A program made the translations under genes and the position numbers. This document shows, piece by piece, positions 44,181-45,809 of a DNA stretch of 64,000 bases. Positions within the stretch are counted from its first letter, which is position 1, and every line of letters begins with the position of its first letter. The notes beneath the pieces were generated by a model, which did not search any database, was not told where the DNA came from, and was given only the letters and a program-made list of their open reading frames with translations. The DNA lies in assembly GCF_026616205.1 (NCBI RefSeq), contig NZ_JANHGR010000001.1, positions 248,001-312,000 of the forward strand, written 5' to 3'. The stretch is from Halolamina litorea (GTDB lineage Archaea; Halobacteriota; Halobacteria; Halobacteriales; Haloferacaceae).

Positions 44181-44891
44181 TTACTGGTCGTCGCCGTCGG
44201 CGGCCGGGGGACGCTCCCGGCGTTTGCTGGGTTGCGCATCCGGCTCGCCGACGGTCGCCGCGAGCACCGACGAGACGCCCCGGCGAAGTCGCTCCGAGAG
44301 CGCCTGCTCGGAGATGTCGAGTCGGTCGGCGAGCTTTGTCAGATCGGTCTCCCGCGGCACCTCGAAGTAGCCGGCGCCGAGTGCTTCCTGTAGCGCCTCC
44401 TCCTGTTTCGACGAGAGGTCGTACTGCCGCCCCGAGTCGTCGTCGGCGGTGTGGGCACGGAGGAGTTGGACGGTGAAGCCGTTCTCCCGAAGCAGCGCGA
44501 TGTACTCCGTCAGGGCCTCCCGGTCGGGCAGGCGGACCTTCATCACCGCCCCGTCGACGGTCGTCTTGACCGAGAGCCGCGAGGCACCGGTCTGTCGGTC
44601 GATCGGCGTCGGGTTCGTGGTGCCGGTGTCGCGCGCCACGACGACCCGGTAGAGGCGCTTGTGGTCGTTGGCCTCGATGCACTCGTGCTCGCTGATCGTC
44701 GGGTCGTCCGGCAACGCGGCCTCGAACGCCTCGAAATCGCCCCCGGAGGCCCAGACGAACAGGACCGGATCGGACGCGCGGTCGGCGGCGGTCGCCCACT
44801 CGCGTTCGAGGGTCATCTGCGGGGCCGCCCTGAGCGACGGCAACATAACCAGGCTCGCGTCGGTCAGGCGGAGTTCGGCGATGAGGCTCAC
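44181..44891 (-). CDS. HTH-10 (Bat-like) transcription regulator
   Basis: A 236-residue haloarchaeal regulator with an N-terminal BAT/GAF-type ligand or redox domain (about residues 1-150) and the C-terminal HTH-10 domain YDLSSKQEEALQEALGAGYFEVPRETDLTKLADRLDIS. The GTG at 44891 was chosen because it aligns with the MSLIAELR start of the paralogue at 45090-45809. It is convergent with sucD. The ~200-base upstream region carries an unusual set of inverted repeats. Target genes unknown. Confidence 0.88.
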   Translation of the reverse strand: MSLIAELRLTDASLVMLPSLRAAPQMTLEREWATAADRASDPVLFVWASGGDFEAFEAALPDDPTISEHECIEANDHKRLYRVVVARDTGTTNPTPIDRQTGASRLSVKTTVDGAVMKVRLPDREALTEYIALLRENGFTVQLLRAHTADDDSGRQYDLSSKQEEALQEALGAGYFEVPRETDLTKLADRLDISEQALSERLRRGVSSVLAATVGEPDAQPSKRRERPPAADGDDQ

Positions 44892-44935
44892 ACGCGCACG
44901 TTGTGTTCGCACTTACTAAGCTTGTTTGGCAGAAA

Positions 44936-44986
44936 CGGATGGGCCGGAAGGGAGCCCATCCACCCTTGTCAGAGGCGGCCCATCCG
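44936..44986 (-). promoter_or_regulatory. competing inverted repeats upstream of the HTH-10 gene
   Basis: CGGATGGGCC (44936-44945) can pair with GCCCATCC (44954-44961, 8 bp through GGATGGGC, 9-base loop) or with GGCCCATCCG (44977-44986, perfect 10 bp). The two pairings are mutually exclusive. As RNA they would lie in the leader of the 44181-44891 gene, 45-95 bases before its start; as DNA they are three half-sites of one motif. Either an RNA switch or a multi-site operator is possible. Confidence 0.5.
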
Positions 44987-45058
44987 ACGCTATCGCGCCG
45001 GTGGACACCTCGTAGTTTGGCCGGGGCGGGCGTAGTCTTTCGGCTTGTGTGCTCCGGG

Positions 45059-45067
45059 TTTTATAAG
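45059..45067 (-). promoter_or_regulatory. TATA box for the HTH-10 gene (long leader)
   Basis: CTTATAAAA on the minus strand is the strongest TATA match of the region. With normal spacing transcription would start near 45035, leaving a leader of about 140 bases, unusually long for a haloarchaeal mRNA. The element is nearly palindromic and could also fire rightward. Confidence 0.45.
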
Positions 45068-45089
45068 CGAACCCCGTACAGAGCTCGGC

Positions 45090-45809
45090 TCAGCCGGAGG
45101 GGGTATCTATCTCCGAGGGCACCCCCTGTCCGGCGGCGACGTTCGTCCGGGGACGTTTGTGCTCGCCCAGTTCGCCGACCGTCGACTCCAACACGGCGGC
45201 GACGCCGCGGCGCAGTCGCTCCGAGAGCGCCTGCTCGGAGATGTCGAACTCCTCGGCCAGGCTCCCGAGGTCCGTCCCGCGGGGGGTCTCGAAGTAGCCC
45301 GCATCCAGCGCCGCACGTAACGCGTCGACCTGTTTCTCCGAGAGGTCGTACTTGGCGTGGTCGTCGTCGGCCGGATAGGCTCGGAGCAGTTCCACCTCGT
45401 AGCCGTGCTCCCGACAGAGCCGGATGTACTCGCTGAGTGACTCCCGGTCCGGGAGGCGCTCGGTGATGAACGCACAGTTGGCGGCGGTCACCATCCCGAG
45501 TTGGGAGGCGCTGGTCTTCCGGTGGAGCGGCGCCGGGTCGATGAGCGCCGGGCTGTCGTCGAGGACGACCTCGTAGAGTCGGCGCTCCCCGTCGTCCTCG
45601 ATGAGTTCGAACGCCTGTACCGTCGGATCGTCGGGGAGCGCGGCCTCGAACGCCTCGAACTCGCCACCCCACGTCCAGATGAACACGACAGGGCCCGCGG
45701 GCGCCGGGACGCTGTACTCGGTCTCGGCACGCATCCCGCCCGCCGCCCCGAGTGCGTGACCCAGCGCGAACGGTTCGCCCGAGATACGGAGTTCGGCGAT
45801 CAGGCTCAT
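45090..45809 (-). CDS. HTH-10 (Bat-like) transcription regulator, paralogue
   Basis: A 239-residue paralogue of the neighbouring regulator, with the same MSLIAELRIS start, a GGEFEAFEAALPDDPTV core motif (GGDFEAFEAALPDDPTI in the neighbour) and HTH-10 domain YDLSEKQVDALRAALDAGYFETPRGTDLGSLAEEFDIS. The two differ in the N-terminal ligand region, so they probably respond to different signals. Tail EHKRPRTNVAAG is basic. Targets unknown. Confidence 0.88.
   Translation of the reverse strand: MSLIAELRISGEPFALGHALGAAGGMRAETEYSVPAPAGPVVFIWTWGGEFEAFEAALPDDPTVQAFELIEDDGERRLYEVVLDDSPALIDPAPLHRKTSASQLGMVTAANCAFITERLPDRESLSEYIRLCREHGYEVELLRAYPADDDHAKYDLSEKQVDALRAALDAGYFETPRGTDLGSLAEEFDISEQALSERLRRGVAAVLESTVGELGEHKRPRTNVAAGQGVPSEIDTPSG

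Follow-up and report, generated by a model that had tools for sequence, protein, structure and literature searches.

Genes and repeats of the spacer

The window analyzed is a stretch of 64,000 nucleotides of the Halolamina litorea genome. Two tandem genes of the minus strand, A and B, are separated there by a spacer of 198 bases (44892-45089). Both encode proteins featuring BAT and HTH_10 domains (Pfam), in line with the original prediction, which had called them Bat-like regulators. Gene A (44181-44891; HTH_10 5.4e-15, BAT 1.2e-11) lies downstream of the spacer, and starts with a GTG at 44891. Gene B (45090-45809; HTH_10 8.7e-16, BAT 6.5e-9) is the upstream paralog, and lies outside the putative RNA gene described below. 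The neighbors of gene A in the window, as in genomes G001 and G102, are genes which we take to be sucC-sucD; in genomes of the genus here called g9 and in G101 the neighbors of the HTH_10 gene are different. In G001 gene B is absent, and a threonine synthase-like gene stands directly upstream of the element. The same is suggested for G003, from which only one close protein match was obtained.

The spacer hosts repeated sequences. CGGATGGGCC has two potential partners, a near copy (8 bp of pairing) and a distant one (11 bp). On the plus strand, the three segments are CGGATGGGCCG (44936-44946), the near GCCCATCC (44954-44961) and the distant CGGCCCATCCG (44976-44986). Repeats and near pairing are as originally described; the distant pairing exists as well, and is 1 bp longer than the 10 bp that had been claimed. 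On the minus strand, the would-be transcript, CGGATGGGC stands first, and an earlier partner overlooked in the original prediction, GTCCACCG, is found further upstream. The repeats are more than chance would provide. In dinucleotide-preserving shuffles of the 198-base spacer, a perfect 11-bp inverted repeat within 84 nt was found in 3/500, and three copies of one 8-mer, both strands considered, in 2/500. The 8-mer GGATGGGC occurs at 5 sites in the window vs 2.44 expected, and 7/100 shuffles contain at least 5.

Organization of the element in Halolamina

The spacer was matched by DNA search in 7/7 Halolamina genomes. Among 170 genomes of the family, clear matches were confined to these 7; matches of 20-40 bases in 14 other genomes (E 0.004-0.01) were taken as chance. 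Conserved blocks include a TATA box, P1, with the next 25 bases, a first hairpin (H1), a linker, the loop and the 3' arm of a second hairpin (H2), and a TTAGTAA box, P2.

All these features lie on the minus strand. P1 (TTATAAAA, 45059-45066) is 168-175 bases upstream of the GTG, as had been noticed, and TATA-like boxes are aligned with it across Halolamina. A scan for bacterial promoters and terminators, a type of scan ill-suited to archaea, gave no match. The hexamer GACTAC (45032-45037), invariant in the 7 Halolamina, is placed ~26 nt after the TATA centre, and by this spacing is the predicted RNA start. The predicted small RNA would measure ~105 nt (44931-45037), as suggested by the conserved block, the folds and the covariance searches, both ends being approximate predictions.

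H1 (44978-45006) is made by GTCCACCGGCGC (45006-44995) and GCGTCGG-A-TGGGC, H2 (44937-44961) by GGATGGGC and GCCCATCC, which enclose the C/U-rich loop TCCCTTCCG. The arms of H2 vary between genomes, and still pair. The linker CCTCTGACA (44967-44975) is invariant in the 22/22 elements counted, its presence having also served as acceptance criterion for the copies of genus g9. H1 and H2 are part of the predicted folds in 7/7 Halolamina, with moderate z-scores (-1.66 to -3.79), and H1 is further backed by pair probabilities and pair counts, though within Halolamina alone pair counts show no excess over shuffles. In the fold of the window the two hairpins coexist around the invariant CCUCUGACA, with mean pair probabilities of 0.96 (H1) and 0.99 (H2). 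In the predicted folds the linker is unpaired with a mean probability of 0.55, vs 0.42 for the rest; the values for the window are 0.33 and 0.42. The TTT run 3' of H2 (44933-44935) is a weak terminator candidate, the longest T-run measuring 2 to 4 residues across the 22 elements. The window stretch matched no Rfam covariance model at E<=1, and in 8 further loci only tRNA genes were matched.

P2 (44913-44919), which the original prediction had not noticed, is separated from the start codon of the regulator gene by 21 nt in six Halolamina genomes and by 22 nt in one, while the intervening sequence drifts. A constant spacing with drifting sequence in between fits the expectation for a leaderless promoter. 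In the three genomes read for this, the paralog carries a similar box, TTTGTAA (TTTATGA in G006), 22 nt before its own start.

Elements in other genera

Six other genera yielded HTH_10 relatives in a protein search of 79 genomes of the family. Upstream regions were read for 13 matches outside Halolamina (L068-L080): 6 contain the element, three from g9 and three from a further genus, g20, and 7 do not. Copies in g9 and g20 are arranged as those in Halolamina, with a different sequence.

Covariance models were run on 167 genomes of the family. Model R1, with stricter filters, gave 7 matches, all in Halolamina. Model R2 gave matches at E<=1 in 64 genomes, at E<1e-7 in only 10, the next value being 0.0014. 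Among the next 20 loci inspected (L101-L120), CCTCTGACA was found at the match only in L112, from genus g18; this site is not upstream of an HTH_10 gene, and was left uncounted. A model including one g9 copy matched 15/15 g9 genomes at E<=1. Linker and hairpins were recognized in 12, and the motif is absent at the covariance match in the remaining three (G029, G030, G038). The layout TATA, H1, CCUCUGACA, H2 and, 28-32 nt ahead of the start, a second TATA has been identified in 22 genomes of three genera (Halolamina, 7/7; g9, 12/15; g20, n=3). A TATA-like P1 box was matched in 20/22 loci by a pattern picked after inspection, and is weakest in g20. By sequence, the RNA element has a putative promoter of its own in Halolamina and in most other copies. 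In g9 loci (L149-L160) a dyad such as CCTGATNNNTCAGGG is found between the P1 TATA and the predicted start, and is likely a regulator site.

The 22 copies (21 distinct) were compared to 500 shuffles for covariation. Paired cells amount to 81.8% vs 70.0% in shuffles, cells changed on both sides to 41 vs 17.0, with a covariation score of 0.262 vs 0.135; each of these values was reached by 0/500 shuffles. The number of pairs with changes on both sides (reached by 26/500) and that of further pair types (254/500) are not beyond shuffles. In slid controls the paired fraction drops to 36-47%. The second pair of H1 is the clearest single case, being C-G in g9, U-G in Halolamina and U-A in g20. Of the 22 aligned rows, 11 had served to build the model to which the alignment was fitted, and the 5' arm of H1 is misplaced in four (L152, L156, L157, L158), so that the paired changes are to be taken as support, rather than proof, of the H1 and H2 stems.

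The element and the HTH_10 gene

The element precedes an HTH_10 gene in 18 of the 22 genomes. Four of the 12 element-bearing g9 genomes (G032, G040, G042, G043) carry an intact element and no HTH_10 gene at the locus; four HTH_10 proteins used as tblastn queries against the 3-kb loci of these genomes found no gene (best E 2.9). Flanking genes vary. They encode HTH_10 on one side and HTH_10 or a threonine synthase-like protein on the other in Halolamina, Trm5 on one side and HTH_10 or a universal stress protein (Usp) on the other in g9; Trm5 and Usp genes are the neighbors in the gene-less g9 locus L152. A promoter-like TATA box between element and gene, at -28 to -32 according to a pattern chosen after inspection, is present in 18/18 genomes carrying the gene. 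The persistence of the element at loci lacking the gene, together with the P2 box in all the others, argues that the element is not simply a leader, though the HTH_10 gene is its usual neighbor.

The spacer probably holds an independent small non-coding RNA gene of the minus strand, separate from the regulator message. The computed features that support this assignment are the conserved layout, the paired stems, the invariant linker, the P2 box, and the survival of the element where the gene is absent from the locus. The RNA would be transcribed from P1, and its two hairpins, flanking CCUCUGACA, would be followed by an end near the short U-run that lies 3' of H2. Transcription of the HTH_10 gene would be separate, driven by P2, and would give a leaderless message. 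The RNA would act in trans, most likely by base pairing through its linker and possibly together with a partner protein. The moderate fold z-scores, the short T-run and the 3/15 g9 genomes in which no element is recognized weaken the small RNA gene reading.

Alternatively, P1 could direct the synthesis of an HTH_10 mRNA with a long leader, in which H2 works as terminator or attenuator and the 3' arm of H1 rivals for pairing to the 3' arm of H2, P2 providing a leaderless form of the same message. This is unlikely. The position upstream of the gene in most genomes is compatible with control in cis, dual promoters are known in H. volcanii (excerpts of PMC4983044), and 2-4 T residues follow H2. 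An attenuator or riboswitch leader should be followed by the controlled gene in all carriers, and the element is kept where the gene is missing. Of the long leader originally predicted, a conserved paired element 3' of the TATA is supported; that it belongs to the regulator message is not, given the gene-less g9 loci and the P2 boxes. A conserved alternative pairing, as expected for an attenuator, is also lacking. The near and distant hairpins had been viewed as mutually exclusive; the fold of the window assigns a mean probability of 3e-5 to the distant pairing, and forcing it costs 5.4 kcal/mol. The 10-bp form is found in the genome of the window only, the third copy being CCGTCCACCC, not GGCCCATCCG, in the other six Halolamina. 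In these relatives a weaker GGATGGG/CCCGTCC match, 7 bp long with one G-U, can be drawn by eye, and leaves some small probability to a switch. Fold energies and conservation disfavor attenuator and switch alike, and the two observations named in advance as refuting a switch, a transcription start just 5' of 44891 and a pairing not conserved, are both what prediction gives.

That the repeats are DNA operator copies, bound upstream of P2 by both HTH_10 regulators, is very unlikely. They are found 18-67 bp ahead of P2, and the neighboring genes both encode DNA-binding regulators, yet in the six relatives two of the copies show no sequence conservation. Only the H1 arm stays the same; in place of the other two, relatives have a different, still-pairing sequence, which does not support the three operators proposed as an alternative in the original prediction. 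G-U pairs persist in the stems, such as the U-G second pair of H1 in 7/7 Halolamina, and break the symmetry of a DNA site. CGGATGGGCC is moreover found at 16 sites in the genome (reversed control 5), and the element is also kept beside no HTH_10 gene. Genome counts, unconserved copies and G-U pairs therefore disfavor operators.

A small protein (V/MSTG...DGPPLT..., start 45008) is the least credible product, as its frame, which in several Halolamina opens 33 nt upstream of the linker and spans 30 codons in the window, varies inconsistently in length among Halolamina copies (30, 41, 134, 147, 17 and 174 codons), is missing in G006, and has no counterpart in g9 or g20, no protein-coding frame being common to the copies of the three genera.

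A putative target and further motif sites

The linker of the predicted small RNA may point to a target, though this is doubtful. The complement of the linker, AUGUCAGAGGCA, coincides with codons 1-4 of a PadR-type regulator gene, and is identical in 30/30 genomes, A-ending codons included. After an ATG gene start, the complement TGTCAGAGGC occurs once in the own genome, at the PadR regulator (PF03551, 3.7e-16); the shorter TGTCAGAGG also opens an ABC-type ATPase gene. ATGTCAGAGGCA is identical in the 30/30 genomes tested. The PadR protein has 65 fully conserved residues, 20 of which are encoded by a single codon throughout, and among these A is the last base of codons 2 and 4 only. The element could be one member of a family of haloarchaeal small RNAs, in which the invariant (U)GCCUCUGACA would provide a seed antisense to the beginning of the leaderless PadR coding sequence; such RNAs could tune the regulator by covering its start codon.

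Several data go against this. The same start is kept in 8/30 genomes in which no element was detected. Codons 5-7 are A-rich too, and a general preference for A-rich starts may contribute. According to a rough estimate, about half a gene per genome is expected to begin in this way, and the linker is weakly unpaired in the predicted folds. In many genomes a TGACAT...ATGTCA dyad lies across the start, and may account for the conservation, although it leaves codons 3-4 unexplained; its form is, we assume, that of a PadR autoregulatory operator. This inverted repeat spans the PadR start in many genomes outside Halolamina (L179-L208), and may be a PadR operator.

In the own genome CCTCTGACA alone occurs at 10 sites vs 11 for the reversed control, i.e. 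at chance level, and GCCTCTGACA at 7 sites vs 2. One of these 7 sites, at C1:1897248 (L143-L147), is a second locus, which features TGCCTCTGACA and, after it, a hairpin whose loop is similarly C/U-rich, before an alpha/beta-hydrolase-type gene. The motif has the form UGCCUCUGACA, and UGCCUCUGACAU in three copies. DNA of this locus is found in 6/7 Halolamina, and the motif is kept in 5 of the six, own genome included; the fold around the motif differs from H1. A TATA-like box is located ~110-150 bases past the motif, and an ATG ~26 nt on opens a very short frame. In copies read by eye, the stop TGA of this frame overlaps the start codon (GTG) of the hydrolase gene, an arrangement resembling that of a leaderless upstream ORF. 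GCCTCTGACA also lies beside predicted hairpins at G000:C1:125568-125577 (L133), past a gene end and facing a thermosome-like gene, and in L112 (G083). Both may be further members.

Relation to known small RNAs and promoters

Among the papers listed by the literature searches, none described a relative of the element; those listed for the motif letters were on primers and unrelated work. The element would be of a known kind, a small RNA gene, with good comparative support for haloarchaea and a concrete, testable putative target. Few conserved small RNAs are known in haloarchaea, and a structured RNA that is shared by three genera, has an invariant linker, and in some natural genomes lacks the neighboring gene would lend itself to genetic testing. 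Were the PadR target confirmed, the element would show how small RNAs can act on leaderless mRNAs, in which a 5' untranslated region is not available for binding.

As described in excerpts of PMC6560208, sRNA132 of Haloferax volcanii is intergenic, similar in size (138 nt), has its own promoter, is followed by a gene with a promoter of its own, and is conserved as a unit in a genus. It is made by two stems joined by a single-stranded linker, an organization seen here in predicted folds, and the comparison is one of descriptions. In contrast, the sRNA132 linker measures 13 nt and is pyrimidine-rich, the flanking genes encode two hypothetical proteins, rather than HTH_10, threonine synthase-like, Trm5 or Usp proteins, and, within these excerpts, BLAST found sRNA132 in Haloferax only. 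Other haloarchaeal sRNAs, as presented in parts of Jaschinski et al. 2014 (PMC3956466), and of the reports on the H. mediterranei (PMC5852579) and halite community (PMC7002113) sets, are similarly short, intergenic, and served by archaeal promoters. According to the same parts of the H. volcanii study, 22/27 sRNAs tested have no homologue in any other haloarchaeon (PMC3956466); the structure of the present element is, unlike these, kept across three genera.

The arrangement of the promoters also has a parallel. In H. volcanii, 72% of protein-coding transcripts are leaderless, and two start sites are recorded for 139 genes, of which 111 combine a leaderless with a leadered form (PMC4983044, in excerpts). 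The locus resembles such genes in having two predicted promoters in front of one gene, one with leaderless spacing. It differs from the dual-start genes described in those excerpts in that the distal part is a conserved, predicted structured RNA, which persists without the gene.
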